44,586 nt of DNA from Verrucomicrobiota bacterium. GTDB taxonomy: Bacteria > Verrucomicrobiota > Verrucomicrobiia > Chthoniobacterales > UBA10450. A program made the translations under genes and the position numbers. The stretch spans positions 1 through 44,586 of the forward strand of contig QHOS01000039.1 in NCBI GenBank assembly GCA_003219415.1. Reading direction: 5' to 3'. Positions 2,837 to 40,965 of the stretch are shown here, piece by piece. The notes beneath the pieces were generated by a model that did no database searches, was not told the origin of the DNA, and worked only from the letters and a program-made list of their open reading frames with translations. Within the stretch, counting starts at the first letter, position 1; the number at the start of each line of letters is the position of its first letter.

Positions 2837-4024
2837 TTATTGGCTGTTCAGAGTGATTTGCGGAGCAGGTTCGCTTGCATCAATCCGTGCACTCACCTTC
2901 TGGATTTGTGCGCTCTGTTCTTTCACAGTCGCAGCGAGCGCTGAAATTTCCTGTTTAAGCTCTTGCACAGTGCGATGCTCTTTGAGGAATTCATTCAGCA
3001 ACATCGCGTTTATCGCCTCGTAGCGCACAGTGTTCACTTTGCCGTCCTCATCGCGTACAACCAAGTCGGGGTCGACCGCTTCCACGTCCTCAGCCACCAA
3101 GCCAAACTGCGGAATCTTTTGCGGCTCTATTTCTTTCTTGTAACGGAAGATGACCGGTTTAAGCGCGAAAAGCACTTCGCTGGATTGTGCCATTGGCCGG
3201 ATCTGCTCTTTAAACCTCCGGGAGGAAGTGATCGTGCCGAGCTTGCCGCTTGAATTAATGAAAACCGCAGCTCCCCCTGAAGAGGTCTGGCCAAATACGC
3301 TGCCGATAAAACAGCTGTTGCTTACATTCGCACCTACGACCCCGGAACCGATACAGATAACATTACCGGCCGTGGTGACATTGTTGCCGGCCCCAAAGCC
3401 TAAGGCCGTGTTGGCGCTGCCGGTGCTATTGTTTTCCAGCGAATGAGCGCCATCTGTTGTATTGAAATTGCCCGTTGTGTTGTTACTGAGCGCGACGTCA
3501 CCGTTGGCTGTGTTGTGGTTTCCCGTTGTGTTTCTCACTAACGCGGAAAAACCATCGGCCGTGTTGTGGAAACCGGTGGTGTTTGCAAAGAGCGCCCTCG
3601 AACCAGTGCCTGCATTCTCGAAGCCAGTGCTGTTGGCAAATAGCACTTCAAAACCAACTGCGGTGTTGTTGGGGCCAGTTGTATTAAGAAGCAGAGCACC
3701 AAATCCATTGGCCGTATTATCACTGCCAGTCGTGTTGCTACCGAGTGCGCCAATACCAGCCGCCGTGTTATTACTGCCAGTGGTATTGCTAAAAAGAGCG
3801 TCAAATCCAATGGCCGTATTCGAGGTGCCGCTGGTAAGACTTTGGAGCGCGCCATCTCCCTCAGCTGTGTTAAAGCCGGGATAGCCTCCATCCGGCGCCG
3901 GGGTCACCGCTCTGGCCTCCGGCAAAAGCGCAGCACACATTAGGACGAGTGGGATGAGAATCAACGCGCATCGTAAAGGCGAATGGCTGATCGAATGGCT
4001 GATCGGTAAAATTATCGTTTTCAT
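2837..4024 (-). CDS. Secreted repeat protein with C-terminal S74 intramolecular chaperone domain
   Basis: The protein has 395 residues. A signal peptide (hydrophobic LILIPLVLMCAALL, likely cleavage after ARA, residue 39) is followed by about eight 17-residue repeats of the form NTAxGxxALxxNTTGxx (residues about 65-210), which should stack as a beta-roll or beta-helix. The C-terminal part carries the S74 domain: TSSRRFKEQI, ALKPVIFRYKKE, QFGLVAEDVEAV, and a final heptad-like helix (about 345-385). S74 domains trimerise fibre-like proteins and usually cleave themselves off at the SS-R-x-K motif, which is intact here. A surface or secreted trimeric fibre is therefore likely, though its binding target is unknown. 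The start is supported by AGAGGAAA ahead of the ATG. A longer paralogue is encoded at 39526. Confidence 0.8.
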   Translation of the reverse strand: MKTIILPISHSISHSPLRCALILIPLVLMCAALLPEARAVTPAPDGGYPGFNTAEGDGALQSLTSGTSNTAIGFDALFSNTTGSNNTAAGIGALGSNTTGSDNTANGFGALLLNTTGPNNTAVGFEVLFANSTGFENAGTGSRALFANTTGFHNTADGFSALVRNTTGNHNTANGDVALSNNTTGNFNTTDGAHSLENNSTGSANTALGFGAGNNVTTAGNVICIGSGVVGANVSNSCFIGSVFGQTSSGGAAVFINSSGKLGTITSSRRFKEQIRPMAQSSEVLFALKPVIFRYKKEIEPQKIPQFGLVAEDVEAVDPDLVVRDEDGKVNTVRYEAINAMLLNEFLKEHRTVQELKQEISALAATVKEQSAQIQKVSARIDASEPAPQITLNSQ

Positions 4025-4250: not shown

Positions 4251-5384
4251 CTACGCAATGGATTTGCTGTAGATGCGATATGTCTTGTAGCGGTGGGCGC
4301 CAATCGCTTCGAGAAAACGATTGATCATGAAATTATCTTCAAGCGTGAGACTGAGTTCTCCAGTGAATCCATGTTTAATCATTGCGTCTTCGACAATTCG
4401 CAGCACAAGCATTTCGGCAATACCAGCGCGGCGATATTTTTCGATCACGCCAAGCGCGATAAGCCGCGCAGTCCGGATACGGCTCTTGTAATAAAGGAGT
4501 TTTAGAAGCCCGATTGGAAATCCAAAAGTTGTAAGCCGGCCGTTGATATGGCGTAGGGCGACGTTAATGTCTGGCACACATAGGATGAAGCCGGCTGGCT
4601 CGTCGCCAACTTCCGCAATGAGCGTGAACTCCGGAATGATGAGCTGGCTAAGCTCGTGCGTCATAAACTCGATCTCTGCTTCCGTGAACGGCACAAAACC
4701 CCAGTTGTTTTTCCACGCTTGATTGTAAATCTGACGGAGCCGTCTGCTTTCCTCGCGAATATTCTTGAGGTTTCCAGCTCGGATCGTGACAGCCAAACGC
4801 TTTCGAAAACGTTCGCCCAGAGGTCGCAAACGCGCCGCGGCTCTTGCCGGGTCGGCAAACCACCAGGCGTACCAATCTTTTGCTTTTGTAAAACCGCAGC
4901 TCTCGATCAGGTCTTTGTAGTACGGGGGATTGTGCGCGGTCAATATGGTTGGCGGAAACTGAAACCCATCAATCAAAAGAGCGCAGACATAGTTCGTTGA
5001 GTAGTCAATCGGTCCCATGATTTCCGTGCGTCCTCTTTCGCGAAGCCAATGCTCCGCGCGTTCAAAGAGCGCAGCAGCCACATCGCGATTGTCGATGCAC
5101 TCAAACAAGCCGAAGCAGCCGACGTTCGATTGATGCAATGCATTGTAATTCGGATCGTCGCTCGCCATGATTCGGCCAGCGATCTTGCGGTTTTTCCTCG
5201 CGAGAAATAAGGCGGCGTCGCCATGTCTGTAGAACGGATGCCGTTTACGATCGAGGAACGCTTTGCGTTCGATGATTAGGGGCGGTACCCAGGCTGGATC
5301 GTTGACATAAATTCGCCATGGAAACTTGATGAACGCATTGCGCTCGCGGCGCGAGATCACTTCTGAAATTTCGATGTTCGACAC
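4251..5384 (-). CDS. GNAT-family acyltransferase resembling bacterial ceramide synthase (bCerS/YghO-like)
   Basis: The protein has 377 residues, the usual length for the YghO-like GNAT family, which includes the bacterial ceramide synthase described in Caulobacter. Family hallmarks visible are FGLFECIDN (about 94-102), MGPIDYSTNYVCALLIDGF (about 123-141), NPPYYKDLIESCGF (about 151-164), and a GNAT acyl-CoA/ACP-binding loop near KYRRAGIAE (about 316-324). The C-terminus RYKTYRIY is also characteristic. The proposed role is N-acylation of a sphingoid base to a ceramide in the cytoplasm. It is the last gene of the minus-strand operon, behind the CDP-alcohol phosphotransferase and SPT-like genes, and that context is what raises the ceramide assignment above a generic GNAT. 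Remnants of two related genes lie at 633 and 2643. The fold is certain; the substrate is inferred. Confidence 0.8.
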   Translation of the reverse strand: MSNIEISEVISRRERNAFIKFPWRIYVNDPAWVPPLIIERKAFLDRKRHPFYRHGDAALFLARKNRKIAGRIMASDDPNYNALHQSNVGCFGLFECIDNRDVAAALFERAEHWLRERGRTEIMGPIDYSTNYVCALLIDGFQFPPTILTAHNPPYYKDLIESCGFTKAKDWYAWWFADPARAAARLRPLGERFRKRLAVTIRAGNLKNIREESRRLRQIYNQAWKNNWGFVPFTEAEIEFMTHELSQLIIPEFTLIAEVGDEPAGFILCVPDINVALRHINGRLTTFGFPIGLLKLLYYKSRIRTARLIALGVIEKYRRAGIAEMLVLRIVEDAMIKHGFTGELSLTLEDNFMINRFLEAIGAHRYKTYRIYSKSIA

Positions 5385-5505: not shown

Positions 5506-6432
5506 TCAAGCGGGTTCTAACGTTTCCAGGAGCGACTCGGCCATATCTTCCTGGCGAAACAGGAGGTAAACGAAGAGTAAATTGAGCGGGATGAGCTCAA
5601 ACCAGAAGTAATAAACTGGTTGGCTGATGAACAGAAGCGCAAACAAGACCAGCATCCGGACATTCGTCATCAAGAGTCGCCACCACTTGAGCGTCGGCCG
5701 GGCCAAATTTCGATAACGCGTTCTTAGCCGTTCAGGAATTTCGCCGTGAAACAATTGGCGGACCACATCACGCAACGTTTTTAAGCGCGGCGCCAGCATT
5801 TCCTGTTGGCGGGTAAAGTTCAAATACAACGCAAGCAGAAGCTTCTGCCACGGTGTGTGACGCCAGGTCAACTTCGAGTAATCCGATCGCAGGCCGGACA
5901 ACGAATCTACGCTCGTCCGCGCTCCCGTCGTTACAAAGTAAAGATAGGTGCTGCGATAATAGTCAGCCGCTGCTCCTTGCAATGCGTGACTGATCCCAAC
6001 AGCACACGCGAGAAGAATGATGGCAGGCGACGAGCCTGCGAACAGACAGCGGAGAGTCAAGTGCAAGTAAACACTGACAAAGACCAGGTGGTCGGCAACG
6101 CTGTCGATGATACGGCCCTCGCGGCTTTCTCGATGGGTCAGACGCGCGAGCTGGCCGTCCGCGTTGTCGAGCGTATTCGCGCAAACATGGAGCATCATCC
6201 CCACCACGTTGATGCCTAGATGGCGATAGTAATAAAGGTGTCCGGCAACAACGCCAAAGATGCCGGCCAGGAGGCTCACTGCCGCGGGCGTCATCTTGAG
6301 CCACGCAAAAAACCGGGCCAACCAAAACCCTATTGGCCTGTAGAAATAGAGATCGAACACTCCTTCGACCTCGCGCGCTTTGTATGTAGCCTCGACGCCT
6401 GAGCGCGGCGCGTCTGTTTGTCGTAGCATCAA
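5506..6432 (-). CDS. CDP-alcohol phosphotransferase, probable sphingolipid headgroup transferase
   Basis: The protein has 308 residues. It carries the complete CDP-alcohol phosphotransferase signature D-x2-D-G-x2-A-R-x8-G-x3-D-x3-D, seen as DNADGQLAR then GRIIDSVAD, with metal-binding Asp 89, 92, 110 and 114. About six membrane segments follow the family layout, and a long basic amphipathic insert lies at about 200-250. Enzymes of this family swap CMP of a CDP-alcohol for a lipid alcohol, or the reverse, at the inner membrane. Lying between the SPT-like and ceramide-synthase-like genes, it may make a ceramide phospho-headgroup; Bacteroides uses a family member for inositol phosphorylceramide. 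The headgroup cannot be read from the sequence. A glycerophospholipid role remains possible. Confidence 0.8.
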   Translation of the reverse strand: MMLRQTDAPRSGVEATYKAREVEGVFDLYFYRPIGFWLARFFAWLKMTPAAVSLLAGIFGVVAGHLYYYRHLGINVVGMMLHVCANTLDNADGQLARLTHRESREGRIIDSVADHLVFVSVYLHLTLRCLFAGSSPAIILLACAVGISHALQGAAADYYRSTYLYFVTTGARTSVDSLSGLRSDYSKLTWRHTPWQKLLLALYLNFTRQQEMLAPRLKTLRDVVRQLFHGEIPERLRTRYRNLARPTLKWWRLLMTNVRMLVLFALLFISQPVYYFWFELIPLNLLFVYLLFRQEDMAESLLETLEPA

Positions 6433-6515: not shown

Positions 6516-7772
6516 TCAGGCGCTTTGCTTTTGCAGTGCCACTGGAACGAGTGTGTCCGCGAGGATGTTTAAGGCTTCGTCCAGATCTGCGCGCGTATGT
6601 TTGGCAGTCACACAAGCACGAAAACATATCCGATGTTGCGGCACAGCCGGATAATCAACGGGAGCAACCCACAGACCACGGCGTCGCAGTTCATGTCCCA
6701 GCCGATACATGCGCTCCCGATCACCAATGACAATCGGCATCACGTATGTCGTCGATCCCCCAGTATTCAATCCGAGACCACGAAGTTGCGCGTGGAAGTA
6801 ATCGGCGTTTTCCCAAAGTTGGGTCCGCAATTCCGGCTGCTTCGTGCCGAGCTCCAGCGCTTTTAGAATTGCCGCGATCACCACGGGTGGCAGCGCACAG
6901 GAATAAACATACGGATGCGCATAAAATCGGAGGTATTGCAGCGTCTCCTTGGAACCGGCTACGAAGCCTCCCAGTGCTCCGAAAGCCTTGGAGAAGGTCC
7001 CATAAACCAGCGGAACGCGGTCCTCCACTCCGAACTTTTCCGCCGCCCCGCGACCATGTTCGCCACATGCCAGCATGGAATGCGCTTCATCAATAAAAAC
7101 GCTCGCGCCGTGAGATTCTGCGACAGCGAGTAATTCCGTCAGGTTGCCGAAATCGCCATCCATCGAATAAATGCCTTCCACTATCACGAGCTGGCGGCGC
7201 CCTTTTTGACGGCTCAGCGCGGCATCAAGCGAACCCGCGTCGTTATGCTCGAATTTCTCGGTGCGGCATCGGGACAGGACCGCGCCATCGCGCAAACTGA
7301 GGTGCGAGCGGTTGTCCAGAAGGGCGACGTCGGTCTTGCGAAGCAGCCCGGAGATCGTGCCTAGCGCGCCCCCAAATCCACTGTTGAATAGCATCGCATC
7401 CTCACGTCCAAGAAACTTTGCGACGCGCCGTTCGAGCTCCCGATGCAGATCCGTCATTCCGGAAAGCATGGGCGATCCGCAAGCTCCCAATCCATGGGTG
7501 CGGAGCGCCTCGTGCGCCGCGATCAGAACCTCGGGATGATTGGCAAGGCCGAGATAATTATACGAACAGAGATTAATCACCGGCCGCGGCCTGCCGCCGT
7601 AACTGATCACTGTGCGCGCATCCGCTGTGCCAAGCAGCTCAGGTTCATACAATTCAACCGCCCACGCGCCAACGCGCATCCAGTTTGTAAAGCTCGCTGG
7701 AGCTTGCAGCGGATCATTGCTTTCACCCGCCAGGAAATTGCTCAGACTAAGTTTTGCCGGGTCCTGGTTCAT
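6516..7772 (-). CDS. Serine palmitoyltransferase-like alpha-oxoamine synthase (PLP)
   Basis: The protein is a class II alpha-oxoamine synthase of 418 residues from the ATG at 7772. The frame extends to a TTG at 7829, but those extra 19 residues are not conserved-looking. Family features are NYLGLANHP (about 72-80), the cofactor-stacking His in NRSHLSLRDG (about 157), the PLP-nitrogen Asp in FIDEAHS (about 229) and the Schiff-base Lys in GTFSKAFGALGG (about 262). Homologues include serine palmitoyltransferase, KBL, BioF and HemA. Sequence alone does not separate these. The neighbours (bCerS-like GNAT, DEGS-like desaturase, FA2H-like hydroxylase) point to SPT, condensing L-serine with an acyl thioester to 3-ketosphinganine. 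There are no biotin or threonine-catabolism genes nearby. The RBS is weak; GTG at 7784 is another possible start. Confidence 0.8.
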   Translation of the reverse strand: MNQDPAKLSLSNFLAGESNDPLQAPASFTNWMRVGAWAVELYEPELLGTADARTVISYGGRPRPVINLCSYNYLGLANHPEVLIAAHEALRTHGLGACGSPMLSGMTDLHRELERRVAKFLGREDAMLFNSGFGGALGTISGLLRKTDVALLDNRSHLSLRDGAVLSRCRTEKFEHNDAGSLDAALSRQKGRRQLVIVEGIYSMDGDFGNLTELLAVAESHGASVFIDEAHSMLACGEHGRGAAEKFGVEDRVPLVYGTFSKAFGALGGFVAGSKETLQYLRFYAHPYVYSCALPPVVIAAILKALELGTKQPELRTQLWENADYFHAQLRGLGLNTGGSTTYVMPIVIGDRERMYRLGHELRRRGLWVAPVDYPAVPQHRICFRACVTAKHTRADLDEALNILADTLVPVALQKQSA

Positions 7773-8077
7773 CAAATGGTACACTGTCTTTCGCTCGCTC
7801 CCGTCCCTACGGACGGCCCGTCCCAGCAAAGTTGAGGGTTTTTGTGCTTCACAGCTTCCTTACGAAGTTATCTGCTACATCCGCAGAGTTCCGTGTCGGG
7901 GCAGCTAATTTAGCGAGTTTAGGATTCCGGACAAGACTTTAGTCGATTTGTAGCCATCGGCCCTGTGGGCTGTTTGATTCTCATTGCAACAGCTTTTGTC
8001 GACCGGCCACGGGTCCGTCACCGGACGGATTTCGTCGTGCGGCGAACCGGTGGCTTCAGGGTGCGATGGACCGCCGC
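7773..8077. other. 305-base intergenic gap inside the sphingolipid gene run
   Basis: This is the only long gap between the lipid genes. I see no convincing gene on either strand. It holds a small hairpin, GTCCG-TCAC-CGGAC (about 8026-8039), and GC-rich inverted patches. Its position upstream of the SPT-like gene makes it the natural place for an internal promoter for SPT, CDP-alcohol phosphotransferase and GNAT, but I cannot point to clear -35/-10 boxes. Confidence 0.4.
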
Positions 8078-8692
8078 CTACTTCCGCGTCGTGCGGAAAA
8101 CGTAATCCCATAGCGGCGAGCTAATGCCGTATCCGACGTGATCGTCCTTGAAATGATGGCGGAGGTGATACTGCTTCAGCCAAAGCCACACGCCGCTTTT
8201 CATGGCGAGATGGTGCGTCGCATAATGGAGCATGTCATAGCAGAGATACCCGAAAACCAACCCCGCAAACACCGCCGGCGCCAGGCTTCCAAAAATTAGA
8301 AAGAATAGACCAAAAAAAAGAAACGCGAGCGGGATGCTTATGGCTGGCGGCATAACGAGCCGGCGCGCGTCGTTAGGATAATCGTGATGCACTCCGTGAA
8401 TCACAAAGTGCAGCTGCTTTCCCCAACGAGTCTTCGGTTCGTAATGGAAGATGTACCGGTGAATGAGGTACTCGATCAGCGTCCAGAGCAAAATACCCAG
8501 CAAAAACAACGCCGCTACGGCAACAAACGACAATTGCCGTCGCCACAAAGACACGTAAAGCATGTAGCCAACCACCGGCAAATACAGCGCCAACGGAATC
8601 ACCGGATGCACCCGTGAAAAAAACTCCATGAAATCGCTCTCGAACATCCGGACTGTTTCGTTCTTGTTCGAGACGTATAGTCGGTCTGCCAT
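8078..8692 (-). CDS. Fatty acid 2-hydroxylase-like membrane di-iron enzyme (FA2H/Scs7 type)
   Basis: The protein has 204 residues from the ATG at 8692; a TTG six bases earlier would overlap the desaturase stop. It matches the catalytic half of eukaryotic FA2H/Scs7 without the cytochrome b5 domain. It has four membrane segments and the His clusters EYLIHRYIFHYEP (His 78, 83), HFVIHGVHHDYPND (His 95, 99, 102, 103), YDMLHYATHH (His 156, 160, 161) and QYHLRHHFKDD (His 176, 179, 180), which bind two metal ions. FA2H enzymes place an (R)-hydroxyl at C2 of the N-acyl chain of ceramides using O2. The ceramide-gene context supports the same role here, though carotenoid or sterol hydroxylases share the superfamily. 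Two bases separate its start from the stop of the desaturase gene, so the two are probably translated together. Confidence 0.82.
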   Translation of the reverse strand: MADRLYVSNKNETVRMFESDFMEFFSRVHPVIPLALYLPVVGYMLYVSLWRRQLSFVAVAALFLLGILLWTLIEYLIHRYIFHYEPKTRWGKQLHFVIHGVHHDYPNDARRLVMPPAISIPLAFLFFGLFFLIFGSLAPAVFAGLVFGYLCYDMLHYATHHLAMKSGVWLWLKQYHLRHHFKDDHVGYGISSPLWDYVFRTTRK

Positions 8693-8694
8693 GA

Positions 8695-9741
8695 TCAAAA
8701 ACTAATTGGCCTCGCACTCAGATCAAGGCTGCCAATTTGGCTGGGTGTCGCGTCGGGGACCCGGCGATAGTCGGCCTTTTGTTTCATTCGTTCAACCCGG
8801 GAATACAGGCTGTATCGCTTATCGAAAACGAACTGGAACAGCAACCGGCTCCACGATGAGTGATACTTCAGATCGCTGTAAAATTCCGGGGCCATCGCGC
8901 GCAGTTTCGGCAGGTTGTTCCACGGGATCGAGGGGAGATCGTGGTGTTCGTTGTGATAACCCATGTTTAGCGCTACGCGATTGATTGGCCCGTAATAGCT
9001 GAATGTCTCCTGGTCGAAATCGTAAGTGTAATGCTCCTGGATCCAGCGAGCCCCAACCGGGTGCAACCCAATCGAAAAGAAAAACGCGAACACGAGATAA
9101 AGAAATCCCGGCCAACCGCAAAGATAAATGACGGCCACATCGTAGAGCGCGGCACACGCAAAATTGATGAAGAACCAGCGATCCCACATCGTAATCGCCT
9201 TCAATCGTGGCGGGCGCGTCAGCTGAAAAAATGGGAAGAGCATGAGCCAGATTGCCTTCGTGAACCACCTGTTGCCTACCAGGCGCGCTTCCCAATGGTT
9301 CGCCAGGTCTGCGTCGTATTCGTAATCACCCTGATGAGAATGATGCTTTAAATGATAAACACGAAAGCCCATCGCGCCGGGCGCGAGATTGGGAAGATCG
9401 GCGATGACGGCCACCATCTTGTTCCACCTTTTGTTCCGGAAAATCAGATTGTGAGTTGCGTCGTGAATAATGACGTAATTCGCATGATTGGCGAACGCAC
9501 CGACGCAATAGGCAATGAGAAGACTCAGCCACCAGTAACCAAATCCGAGTTTTCCCATTCCAAACGCGATGGCTGTCTGCATGACTACGATTGAAGCGGC
9601 AATGAGCGCCGTCCACGGATTGCGCACCATCAGTTGCCGGACTTCCGGATGCGCTTTGACGATCGCACGCGCCCGCCCCGGATGCGGTTGATCGGATTCA
9701 GATTGATAAAACGCAGCCTGCATCGGCTTCAAAATATGCAT
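8695..9741 (-). CDS. Sphingolipid delta-4 desaturase-like (DEGS/DES family) membrane desaturase
   Basis: The protein has 348 residues, close to eukaryotic dihydroceramide desaturases. The N-terminal block PHPGRARAIVKAHPEVRQLM matches the DES-specific N-terminal domain (P-H-x-x-R...HPEI-x-x-LM). The histidine boxes are HDATHN (93-98), HLKHHSHQG (130-138) and HNEHHD (263-268). Beyond general desaturases, it has the DES-type run EHYTYDFDQETFSYYGPIN and GYHNEHHDLPSIPWNNLP, and ends FDKRYSLYSRVER. Family members introduce the 4,5-trans double bond (some also C4-hydroxylate) in the sphingoid base, using O2 and reduced cytochrome b5 or an equivalent. It sits between the exporter and the 2-hydroxylase. 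The resemblance to the eukaryotic enzyme is striking for a bacterial gene. The substrate is inferred from family and context. Confidence 0.85.
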   Translation of the reverse strand: MHILKPMQAAFYQSESDQPHPGRARAIVKAHPEVRQLMVRNPWTALIAASIVVMQTAIAFGMGKLGFGYWWLSLLIAYCVGAFANHANYVIIHDATHNLIFRNKRWNKMVAVIADLPNLAPGAMGFRVYHLKHHSHQGDYEYDADLANHWEARLVGNRWFTKAIWLMLFPFFQLTRPPRLKAITMWDRWFFINFACAALYDVAVIYLCGWPGFLYLVFAFFFSIGLHPVGARWIQEHYTYDFDQETFSYYGPINRVALNMGYHNEHHDLPSIPWNNLPKLRAMAPEFYSDLKYHSSWSRLLFQFVFDKRYSLYSRVERMKQKADYRRVPDATPSQIGSLDLSARPISF

Positions 9742-9754
9742 TGTGGACGTATCC

Positions 9755-11839
9755 TCAAACGCGCTTTTTCAAGGGCGCCGCACCGAGCAGCGGCAATACA
9801 AACAGATTTGCCAGGATGTCTATGATGCAGCCAGCGAGCACCACGAGGCCAAAACGCTGAGTCGGTGGAAAATCTGATAGCACGAAAATGGCGAAACCCG
9901 CGGCGATAATCACGTCCGAATAAACAATCCCGCGCCATTGCTCTTCGCGCGCGAAGACCCAGGCGTTCCACCCTTTCTTTCCGTCGCGTTGCGCGCGGCG
10001 GACCCCGAACATGAGATGAATCATCGAATCGATTGCAATGCCGATGCAGACGTTTGTGGCCGGCGCCGAAATGACGTCCACCGGCACATGAAACCAGCCG
10101 ATCCCTCCAAGCATCGACAGCGGCACAAGCGTCAGGCTCGCGATCATCGCTACCGCACCGCGGACAGATCGGGCGACAACCAGCGCGATCACAACGAACA
10201 ACAGATTCAGCCAGAACAATCCGGTCACGAGACTTTCAGCGACGAGTTTGGCGAGCCGACCTTGCAAATAATAAATACCGCCGACGAGGTCAGCCTTGAA
10301 TCCATACTTGCGACAGAGAGCGCGAAGATCGTTCACAACATCGACACGGTATTTCGTACGGCGTGCCTCGATCATCCGGAGTGTGAAAACCGCGTCCGCA
10401 CGGTCTTTACTGACAAAACTTTTGGCCACGCGCGCATACTTCGGTTGCTCCATGATCTCCATCATCTTTTCGTAGCTTATGAGAAACGAAAACGGCGTGC
10501 GATCGCCTTCGGCCAGAAGCGTTGGCAACGAAATTACAGTGCCAACATCTTTCTCGTTTTCCAGCGCGCCATGCAGCCTCCACATTCTTTGGTAGGCCTC
10601 ATCCGTGTTCAGCCTGGTGCCGCTCGTCGCGGAGACGACCAGTGTCAGCGGGTTGGAGCCGCCGGTCCGATCTACGAATTCCAGTCCGTCGCGAAGTTCC
10701 CGATTCGGCTTGAAATAAGCCATAAGGCTCGGGTCAGTGTTCACCCTCGTCAGACCAAGTCCCAAACCTACTGCCAGCAAAATGACGGCTAACGAGAGCA
10801 AGGCAAACCGGCGCGACCAAAATGCATGCGTAGGTTCTGCCTCGACGATTTTGCTTTTCCGCGGCACGGCCCAGCGCAGGAACGCCGGATACATCAAATA
10901 AGCGCAAACGAACGCGACAACTGTGCCAAGCACTCCGCCAAATCCCAATTCGCGCAACGGCTTTGCCTGAACAATTAACAGACTGGCAAAGCCTAACGAT
11001 GCGCAAACCATCGACCAGAACGAAGGCGGAAAAGTCATGCGCCGCGCGTCGGCTGCGAGATCGGGCGACTCCTTGTCCAGACGATGCGCGCGATCGGCAA
11101 GCGTTTGCCAGTTGAAGGTCATGTAAACCAGGTGTGAAAGCGCGATGACGAACACGATCGTACCGAGGTTGACCGTCAAAACGCCGATCTTGTCGCCGAG
11201 CATCGATTGGATGAGCAACGTCAACAAAACAGCGCTGCTGCATGTGCAAAGCATTCCTACAAACAGCCGGATTGATCGGAACAGCGCGGCCATCGTTAGG
11301 CCAAACAAGACAACCGCCGTGAGACTGAAGTAGCGGAAATCGTGCGCCAGACTGCGTCGGAGCATTTCAACGACGTACGGCGGACCCGCGATGTGAATCC
11401 GAAAATCTCGCGCGTTCAGTTCGTGCACGATTTGTTCGAGGCGCTGGATCGGCTTTTCCGTATGCCTGCCTTTCATGAAAATGATCACGTTGCTGGACTT
11501 CCGGTCGTGCGCGATCAACAAGCGGCTCCAGAACGGGCTTTTCAGTGCATCTTCAAGGCTTTTAGGTCCCTCAGCGAGGCTCTTTACGGCGCTCACTCCA
11601 CCGATGGTGTGGGCTCGTTGGGTGAGTTTTTGAATTCGACTCAGGTATCGTGGCGAAGAAATATCGCGTGACGACACCGCCAGAATCACTTCTGGCTGCG
11701 AAGGAAAACTTTGCTCGATCTTTTTGGTTTGCTGGATTCCGGGATCATTCGTTGAAAAGAAAAAATTCTGGTCCACGACGGGCGTCAGGTCCACGAACGC
11801 AGCGACCAGTACAAGCAGCACGCCGCCGATCACGAGCAT
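9755..11839 (-). CDS. MMPL/RND-superfamily membrane exporter, candidate sphingolipid transporter
   Basis: The protein has 694 residues from the ATG at 11839. The frame stays open to 11962, but that extension is the translation of a tRNA gene and is rejected. The layout is a duplicated RND fold: one N-terminal span, a periplasmic loop (about 25-175), five spans (about 180-345), then a second span, loop and five-span set (about 360-690). Proteins of this class move lipids (mycobacterial MmpL, hopanoid HpnN) to the periplasm or outer membrane using the proton gradient. The gene ends 13 bases before the desaturase start and heads the lipid genes, which suggests it carries their product. Its start lies only 9 bases after the tRNA end, leaving no room for a separate promoter. 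Confidence 0.8.
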   Translation of the reverse strand: MLVIGGVLLVLVAAFVDLTPVVDQNFFFSTNDPGIQQTKKIEQSFPSQPEVILAVSSRDISSPRYLSRIQKLTQRAHTIGGVSAVKSLAEGPKSLEDALKSPFWSRLLIAHDRKSSNVIIFMKGRHTEKPIQRLEQIVHELNARDFRIHIAGPPYVVEMLRRSLAHDFRYFSLTAVVLFGLTMAALFRSIRLFVGMLCTCSSAVLLTLLIQSMLGDKIGVLTVNLGTIVFVIALSHLVYMTFNWQTLADRAHRLDKESPDLAADARRMTFPPSFWSMVCASLGFASLLIVQAKPLRELGFGGVLGTVVAFVCAYLMYPAFLRWAVPRKSKIVEAEPTHAFWSRRFALLSLAVILLAVGLGLGLTRVNTDPSLMAYFKPNRELRDGLEFVDRTGGSNPLTLVVSATSGTRLNTDEAYQRMWRLHGALENEKDVGTVISLPTLLAEGDRTPFSFLISYEKMMEIMEQPKYARVAKSFVSKDRADAVFTLRMIEARRTKYRVDVVNDLRALCRKYGFKADLVGGIYYLQGRLAKLVAESLVTGLFWLNLLFVVIALVVARSVRGAVAMIASLTLVPLSMLGGIGWFHVPVDVISAPATNVCIGIAIDSMIHLMFGVRRAQRDGKKGWNAWVFAREEQWRGIVYSDVIIAAGFAIFVLSDFPPTQRFGLVVLAGCIIDILANLFVLPLLGAAPLKKRV

Positions 11840-11848
11840 CAACCAGTG

Positions 11849-11921
11849 CGACCCTAACGGGATTCGAACCCGTGTTACCGCCGTGAAAGGGCGGTGTCCT
11901 GGGCCTCTAGACGATAGGGTC
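11849..11921 (-). tRNA. tRNA-Glu (anticodon TTC)
   Basis: The minus strand folds as a standard cloverleaf: acceptor stem GACCCTA/TAGGGTC, D-arm CGTCTAGAGGCCCAGGACA, anticodon stem CCGCC/GGCGG around loop CTTTCAC (anticodon TTC), and T-arm with GGTTCGAATCC. The discriminator is G at 11849. CCA is not encoded. Most of the body matches E. coli tRNA-Glu as I recall it. It lies between waaA and the MMPL exporter, both on the same strand. Confidence 0.97.
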
Positions 11922-11933
11922 ACAAAACCGAGC

Positions 11934-11962
11934 AATATCAGAATTGCTACTCCTGGACGCAA
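11934..11962 (-). promoter_or_regulatory. Candidate sigma70-type promoter for tRNA-Glu and the lipid operon
   Basis: Read on the minus strand, TTGCGT (11962-11957) and GATATT (11939-11934) are separated by 17 bases and end 12 bases before the tRNA. A perfect inverted repeat AGCAAT-ATCAGA-ATTGCT (11931..11948) overlaps the -10 box and could be an operator or a weak hairpin. The boxes match consensus at only 3/6 and 4/6, so this is tentative. Confidence 0.45.
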
Positions 11963-39525: not shown

Positions 39526-40965
39526 ATGAAAACAATAGCGCCATCAATTCTTATCATACTGTCACTCGTCTGCGTTGCTCTTCCTCTCACAGCGCAGGCG
39601 GTCAGTCCGTCACCGGATGGAGGCTATCCCGGAGGCAACACGGCAGAGGGGAGCAGCGCCCTTTTGAGCTGCACAACCGGCATTTATAACAACGCGATCG
39701 GTATATATTCGCTCCTGAGCGTCACGACCGGCAGCTTTAACACCGGTGTCGGCGCTGGGGCGCTTCTTGCCAACACCGCAGACGAAAATACGGCTACTGG
39801 CGCCGGGGCGCTTTTAAGCAACACCACTGGCATTGAAAACACGGCCAATGGAGCGTTCGCTCTTTTTAGTAACACAGAAGGCAGCTTTAATACCGCCACC
39901 GGCGAAGGCGCACTGCTTAGCAATACCACCGGCACACAAAATACGGTAAATGGAACAGCCGCACTTGGATTTAACTCGACCGGCAACTACAACGATGCTG
40001 TCGGCGCCTTTGCGCTCTTTAATAACATCAGTGGATCTGGCAACAACGCTTTTGGTAATTCTGCGCTTCTTGAAAATATGGTGGGCGTTGACAACACTGC
40101 CATTGGTGATCTCGCGCTCCTGAATAATGACTCGGATGGAACCGGCACTGCCAATTTCAACACGGCAGTTGGTTCTGGGGCACTCTCAGCTAACGTTAAT
40201 GGCGGCGAAAACACCGCCCTGGGTGTCGACACGCTCGCGAACAACAACAACGCGGACTTCCTCACCGCCGTTGGTATTGATGCGCTATTTGCCAACACCA
40301 CCGGCTCCGGCAACACAGCCATCGGCAGTGGCGCGCTCGCTTTCAACACGACGGGCGGTGGTAACACTGCCTTGGGCTTGGATGCTGGTAGCAACGTCAC
40401 CACGGCCAATAACGTCATTTGTATCGGTGCCGCTGGTAACAATGTGGAAAATAGCTGCTTTATTGGCAATATCTTCGGCGCGACATCTTCGAATGGAGTT
40501 GCCGTCCTCATTAATTCAAACGGAAGGCTCGGAACAATGACTTCGTCGGCCCGGTTCAAGGATGAGATCAAGCCAATGGACAACGCCAGTGAAGCGCTCT
40601 TTGCTCTCAAACCGGTCACCTTCCGATACAAGAAGGGAATAGACCCGCAAGGGATTCCACAGCTTGGGCTGGTGGCCGAGGAGGTGGAGGCGGTCAATCC
40701 TGATTTGGTGGTACGCGACAAAGAGGGAAAACCCTACAGCGTGCGTTACGACCAGGTGAACGCGATGTTACTCAATGAGTTCCTCAAAGAGCACCGCAAG
40801 GTGGAGGAACAACAGGCGACAATCACGCAATTAAAGCAGGACTTTCAATCCAGAATCGCCCACCAGCAAAAGCAAATTGAAGCCCTTACTGCGGGCCTGC
40901 AGAAAGTGAGCGCACAACTCGAACTGAACAAGCCCGCACCACAAACGGTGGCAAACAATCAGTAA
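39526..40965 (+). CDS. Secreted repeat protein with S74 intramolecular chaperone domain (longer paralogue)
   Basis: The protein has 479 residues. A signal peptide (MKTIAPSILIILSLVCVALP, cleavage near AQA) is followed by about sixteen 17- to 20-residue repeats such as NTATGEGALLSNTTGTQ and NTAIGDLALLNNDSDG (about 50-310). The S74 domain has TSSARFKDEIKPMDN, ALKPVTFRYKKG, QLGLVAEEVEAVNPDLVVRD and AMLLNEFLKEHRKVEE. A coiled coil ends the protein. It is a paralogue of the protein at 2837..4024, on the opposite strand, with twice the repeat number. A trimeric surface fibre is likely, with self-cleavage at the SS-x-RFK site. Confidence 0.82.
   Translation: MKTIAPSILIILSLVCVALPLTAQAVSPSPDGGYPGGNTAEGSSALLSCTTGIYNNAIGIYSLLSVTTGSFNTGVGAGALLANTADENTATGAGALLSNTTGIENTANGAFALFSNTEGSFNTATGEGALLSNTTGTQNTVNGTAALGFNSTGNYNDAVGAFALFNNISGSGNNAFGNSALLENMVGVDNTAIGDLALLNNDSDGTGTANFNTAVGSGALSANVNGGENTALGVDTLANNNNADFLTAVGIDALFANTTGSGNTAIGSGALAFNTTGGGNTALGLDAGSNVTTANNVICIGAAGNNVENSCFIGNIFGATSSNGVAVLINSNGRLGTMTSSARFKDEIKPMDNASEALFALKPVTFRYKKGIDPQGIPQLGLVAEEVEAVNPDLVVRDKEGKPYSVRYDQVNAMLLNEFLKEHRKVEEQQATITQLKQDFQSRIAHQQKQIEALTAGLQKVSAQLELNKPAPQTVANNQ

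Follow-up and report, generated by a model that had tools for sequence, protein, structure and literature searches.

The fatty acid 2-hydroxylase FA2H is described as an enzyme with four histidine motifs and a di-metal centre (review PMC10002949), and its myxobacterial homologues are reported to be functional and to produce 2-hydroxy fatty acids with a sphingolipid link (Ring, Schwaer and Bode 2009, as cited in PMC10002949). For bacterial dihydroceramide synthesis, yghO and CC_1154 are given as the N-acyltransferase genes (PMC9386255), and in Caulobacter the hydroxyl on the amide-linked acyl chain is ascribed to CC_0202, a protein of DesA type (PMC11324152). Proteins resembling serine palmitoyltransferase (SPT) have also been reported from 22 Verrucomicrobiota metagenome-assembled genomes (MAGs) of the Black Sea, in a paper whose main text never mentions a hydroxylase or a desaturase (PMC11334938). 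Our literature search, which left most subscription journals uncovered, found no bacterial operon that combines DES1-like with FA2H genes and no study of Udaeobacter sphingolipids. Here we analysed a gene for a 204-residue FA2H/Scs7-type hydroxylase without a cytochrome b5 domain, at 8078..8692 on the minus strand of a 44,586-nucleotide stretch (the window; contig QHOS01000039.1) from the draft genome of a Verrucomicrobiota bacterium. The gene sits in a unit of five, with those for a DES1-like desaturase, an SPT-like enzyme, a CDP-alcohol phosphotransferase and a GNAT protein. We consider it probable (roughly 0.65) that it encodes a free-standing FA2H/Scs7-family enzyme which hydroxylates C-2 of the amide-linked acyl chain of the operon's own ceramide.

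The hydroxylase frame runs from an ATG at 8692 to a stop codon at 8078-8080. Pfam analysis matched residues 63-201 to PF04116 (FA_hydroxylase; E 9.4e-20, 71.8 bits against a cut-off of 31), with no match among the NCBIfam models, and the sole significant solved relative by sequence was Scs7 (4zr1; E 7.2e-33, residues 21-201). Over 167 positions aligned with Scs7, 72 residues are identical. The ten histidines that make up the four clusters (H78, H83, H99, H102, H103, H156, H160, H176, H179 and H180) pair one-to-one with Scs7 histidines, from H244 to H349, which we take to be the metal ligands of that enzyme, and all ten are invariant across 49 aligned hydroxylase sequences; this reading is in line with the motifs and metal centre reviewed for FA2H. 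Likewise, with an AlphaFold model of the protein (pLDDT 92, pTM 0.87) four of the 42 Foldseek matches listed were at E <= 0.001, all of them Scs7 chains (TM 0.85-0.86 by query), and alignment of the model to Scs7 using VIA-align gave a Z of 24.2 and an rmsd of 1.9 over 200 residues, with the next unrelated chain at Z 3.9. Chance resemblance is excluded by these E-values together with the at least 573 relatives found in a scan of named genomes, of which 80 (loci L020-L099) were retained. We therefore confirm that 8078-8692 is a genuine gene and a bacterial member of the FA2H/Scs7 hydroxylase domain family, as the preliminary description of this locus had proposed when it recognised the catalytic half of FA2H with all four histidine clusters.

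The same description had pointed to the missing cytochrome b5 domain, and indeed the hydroxylase domain covers nearly all of the 204-residue frame, so that the protein does not fit the b5-fused FA2H subtype of animals, fungi and protists, in which this domain is N-terminal. None of the 80 retained homologues showed a b5-like HPGG motif or a frame longer than 284 residues. However, the importance of this absence had been overstated; many bacterial relatives and the plant enzymes FAH1 and FAH2 (as described in PMC10002949) also lack the domain and, because of those plant members, the wider FA2H family is not defined by a fused b5.

Other members of the superfamily were assessed with a profile built from 32 bacterial FA2H sequences, compared against Scs7, three CrtZ sequences and, as the one further outgroup, this genome's sterol-desaturase-like protein, a set outside which Sur2, Erg3 and Erg25 lie. 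Scs7 scored 158 bits, the three CrtZ scored 5.7, 0.4 and -0.7 bits, and the sterol-desaturase-like protein scored -4.2. In the tree CrtZ parted from all other sequences at 100/100 support, and none of the scanned window proteins is encoded by a carotenoid gene. Identity as a carotenoid hydroxylase (CrtZ) is thus ruled out by the profile scores and the tree split, and the closer kinship to such enzymes that had been raised against the FA2H assignment was looked for and did not appear. The lipid A hydroxylase LpxO belongs to a different superfamily. Scs7, the sterol-desaturase-like protein (L001) and L018 stand on very long branches in this tree and many of its inner forks are weak, and for these reasons we draw no inference from it on the origin of eukaryotic FA2H.

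The genes around the hydroxylase are transcribed from the minus strand in the order MMPL/RND protein, DES1-like desaturase, FA2H, SPT-like enzyme, CDP-alcohol phosphotransferase and GNAT N-acyltransferase, the last five forming the unit. The desaturase (8695..9741, 348 residues) is a membrane protein of the sphingolipid Delta4-desaturase type, with both PF00487 (E 5e-26) and PF08557 (E 1.3e-8) above cut-off, and its sequence combines the Lipid_DES N-terminal and FA_desaturase domains of DES1 with three conserved histidine boxes, HDATH, HLKHH and HNEHH, in the alignment. The SPT-like alpha-oxoamine synthase (6516..7829) has an uncertain start, the listed one being a TTG and other copies beginning further in; its top solved match is the SPT 3a2b (E 1e-75), eukaryotic SPT subunit 2 is also matched (E 7e-59), and H176, D247, H250 and K281 are invariant across eight sequences. 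The CDP-alcohol phosphotransferase (5506..6432; PF01066, E 6.6e-10) probably transfers a head group. The GNAT-type protein (4251..5384) has a matching domain and aligns over the full length with an E. coli entry annotated as YghO (38% identity) and with a protein from Rahnella (39%). The latter is encoded near genes for an oxoamine synthase (SPT), an acyl carrier protein (ACP), an epimerase and an acyl-AMP ligase, and in Streptomyces NBC_01001 a GNAT homologue lies between oxoamine synthase and epimerase genes. By sequence, the GNAT protein of the window is a homologue of the bacterial ceramide N-acyltransferase YghO/CC_1154.

This five-gene unit recurs across Udaeobacter-type Verrucomicrobiota. 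Among the matches listed, the closest FA2H relatives came from soil Verrucomicrobiota MAGs, one of them named Candidatus Udaeobacter, which places the window in this group. FA2H was at least 65% identical to the window protein in 26 of the 80 retained loci, and SPT was present in 24 of these, the other two ending at a contig edge; the desaturase was found in 23, the CDP-alcohol enzyme in 22 (two of those merely 28% alike) and GNAT in 20. The remaining 54 loci, with FA2H at 49-60% identity and mostly from Ignavibacteria, Chlorobi and Bacteroidota, held SPT in two cases, GNAT in one and the desaturase in none within the stretch examined. Stop codons fell inside the aligned FA2H stretch in two loci, L045 and L070. 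Outside the phylum, the Bacteroidota locus L071 carries FA2H, PAP2, SPT, GNAT and epimerase genes consecutively. On an Acidisoma plasmid (L129:1614-4399) SDR, oxoamine-synthase-type and FA2H-like genes are consecutive, a linkage of SPT type outside Verrucomicrobiota, and a contig binned as Acidobacteria gp1 (L049) holds the entire unit at 63-78% identity, reflecting either transfer or misbinning.

In a sample of 384 genomes of the class, 12 of them from the window's family and with GNAT counted at E <= 1e-40, close FA2H was present in seven, all within that family, and all seven also carried the desaturase and GNAT, which occurred in 11 and 65 of the 384 genomes, respectively. Since GNAT was found in 11 of the 12 family members and close FA2H in seven, some of them carry ceramide genes without FA2H. 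Distant FA2H-like proteins (28-38% identity) in seven further class genomes were accompanied by neither the desaturase nor a close GNAT match; these probably differ in role and were set aside. At L012:1480-3516 a distant FA2H-like domain heads a long open frame that by eye runs on into a hydrolase-like part. The same draft genome holds the five-gene unit a second time, on contig C225 (L004:2588-7869), with FA2H and GNAT 73% and 85% identical to those of the window, respectively, and the same GC content (0.543). The nearest contig to it is L035 (88% identity at the DNA level), and in the tree its FA2H groups with that of L038 at 100/100; this copy may be either a genuine second operon or a contaminant that entered the bin from a relative.

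The desaturase stop codon (8695-8697) and the FA2H start codon at 8692 leave a gap of two bases, the spacing from which the preliminary description had argued for a tie between the two enzymes. This tie stood in part. Of the 23 named loci that hold both genes, 22 have them side by side, and in 12 the gap is exactly two bases when the aligned FA2H start is used. The two enzymes likely act on one lipid. However, the link is looser than that to SPT. FA2H lies beside SPT in L040 and L042, where no desaturase was found in the stretch examined, and in L041 SPT adjoins FA2H with the desaturase 4.4 kb away. Because FA2H stays beside SPT in all three, the hydroxylase belongs foremost to the sphingolipid genes.

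Upstream of the desaturase lies a gene for an MMPL/RND-type membrane protein, a possible lipid exporter (9755..11962, minus strand; PF03176), with a tRNA-Glu (11848-11921) just upstream of it. The listed MMPL start overruns this tRNA, so the true start lies further in; a tRNA-Glu also stands ahead of the five-gene unit in L028 and L036. A Kdo transferase gene is located upstream of the unit, and an SDR gene is found downstream of it in L028 and at greater distance in L041. Scanning the window gave one promoter-like match (5.1 expected) and 23 terminator-like matches (11.0 expected), the latter strewn through genes, and we draw no inference from these. Two window proteins, at 2837-4024 and 39526-40965, contain an endosialidase-chaperone (Peptidase_S74) domain.

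We propose that the SPT-like enzyme would make a long-chain base, which the GNAT protein would acylate, and that the DES1-like protein may place a 4,5 double bond (or a hydroxyl) into the base. Hydroxylation of the acyl chain by the FA2H protein would take place within the membrane and draw on a di-metal centre, O2 and two electrons, and the CDP-alcohol enzyme may attach a phosphorylated head group. As electron donors for such a hydroxylase, cytochrome b5, rubredoxin or a ferredoxin had been put forward. Searches of the draft genome (96.53% complete, 253 contigs) with the Cyt-b5, Rubredoxin, Fer2 and Flavodoxin_1 profiles returned no match, so none of these candidates, with ferredoxins of Fer2 type, was found. 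In control searches of 14 genomes the same profiles matched in 1, 7, 12 and 10, respectively, and Cyt-b5 was detected in just one of the 384 genomes of the class sample. As the genome is a draft, the absence of these donors from it is not proven.

The Fer4 profile matched at nine places in the genome, and frames were recovered at eight of these (the ninth shares its contig with another), except that at L119 the matching frame was not recovered. One of these frames encodes a 106-residue protein with ferredoxin-type cysteine clusters, which we take to be typical of 7Fe ferredoxins, and most of the others resemble, by eye, subunits of larger complexes. NAD_binding_1 matched at two places and Rieske at four, the latter with frames of 205 to 601 residues. 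By elimination, our guess for the donor system is the 106-residue 7Fe-type ferredoxin with an FNR-like protein; this soluble ferredoxin and reductase, encoded elsewhere, might feed the hydroxylase, and perhaps the desaturase too, in place of cytochrome b5.

Several points weigh against hydroxylation of the operon's own ceramide as set out here. The five-gene unit contains no ketosphinganine/ceramide reductase, and none was present among the window proteins scanned, the rest of the genome not having been searched for one. Linkage of FA2H to sphingolipid genes is not universal, given the scarcity of SPT (2/54) and GNAT (1/54) outside the group with at least 65% identity. Furthermore, the SPT models of NCBIfam match the SPT-like protein below their own cut-offs, and bioF and Kbl-type models score equally high, likewise below cut-off, which leaves room for a different oxoamine synthase as the first enzyme. 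The choice of ferredoxin, reached by elimination within a draft genome, is the weakest step of the proposal.

Of the alternatives, the one that survives best, while still unlikely, is that the hydroxylase acts before incorporation, on a fatty acid that is free or bound to a carrier, and that the GNAT ceramide synthase receives a 2-hydroxy acyl chain; free fatty acids are the substrate in the sole FA2H assay established in vitro, and the review describes their role as substrates in vivo as an open question (PMC10002949). Slightly less probable is an oxoamine synthase other than SPT, with the operon using another amino acid to make a sphingolipid-like lipid that the FA2H protein hydroxylates. 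The equal scores of the bioF and Kbl-type models speak for this, as does cysteate acyltransferase as another good solved match (E 9e-60), but the top solved matches are SPTs and the gene adjoins those for the ceramide-N-acyltransferase homologue and the CDP-alcohol enzyme, which a sulfonolipid would not need. Action on C4 of the long-chain base or on another lipid, such as an ornithine-type or lipid A-type one, with the place in the operon having another reason, is very improbable: PF04116 is broad, a Kdo transferase gene lies upstream and beyond the Udaeobacter group most FA2H homologues lack SPT as a neighbour, but similarity among solved structures is nearly exclusive to Scs7, SPT adjacency is constant within the group, and CrtZ and the sterol-desaturase-like protein score around or under zero in a comparison outside which Sur2-type base hydroxylases lie.

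Ca. Udaeobacter counts among the most abundant bacteria in soil, and the operon suggests that some "eukaryote-like" soil ceramides may stem from bacteria. More tentatively, and with odds short of even, Udaeobacter-type soil bacteria may make eukaryote-style ceramides, with the base desaturated and the acyl chain 2-hydroxylated, in which the DES1-like and FA2H enzymes share a donor other than cytochrome b5, rubredoxin, Fer2 ferredoxin or flavodoxin. If true, part of the 2-hydroxy ceramides of soil would be bacterial and not fungal, and the joint occurrence of SPT-like, ceramide-synthase-like, DES1-like and FA2H genes in one operon makes such an origin testable. Eukaryotic DES1 depends on cytochrome b5, and a pair of enzymes with b5-dependent eukaryotic relatives in a genome without detectable b5 offers a clean system for finding an alternative donor. 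What makes the locus interesting is mainly this operon and the donor puzzle, in a lineage that is common in soil.

Compared with known systems, the hydroxylase shares its catalytic fold, ten histidines and sphingolipid gene context with yeast and animal Scs7/FA2H, but these carry a fused cytochrome b5 whereas the bacterial protein has none and a shorter N-terminus. The likeness to plant FAH1/FAH2 in this respect is one of description and not of sequence; plants use a separate cytochrome b5, whereas the search of this draft genome detected no such protein. Myxobacterial FA2H homologues, compared by description only (PMC10002949), are likewise bacterial, with the same histidine motifs and a sphingolipid link, although from another phylum. 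The ceramide clusters of Caulobacter and E. coli BL21 (spt, acpR, aasR, epi/cerR and aca/bcerS) share an SPT-like enzyme and a YghO/Aca-type N-acyltransferase with the window, but the unit described here lacks an ACP, acyl-ACP synthetase or epimerase of its own and instead contains DES1-like, FA2H and CDP-alcohol enzymes. Free-standing FA2H without b5 is already known from plants and bacteria, as is bacterial FA2H itself, and the gene is a further member of a known family; what is mildly new is not a lone hydroxylase but an operon that joins DES1-like and FA2H enzymes to sphingolipid genes.
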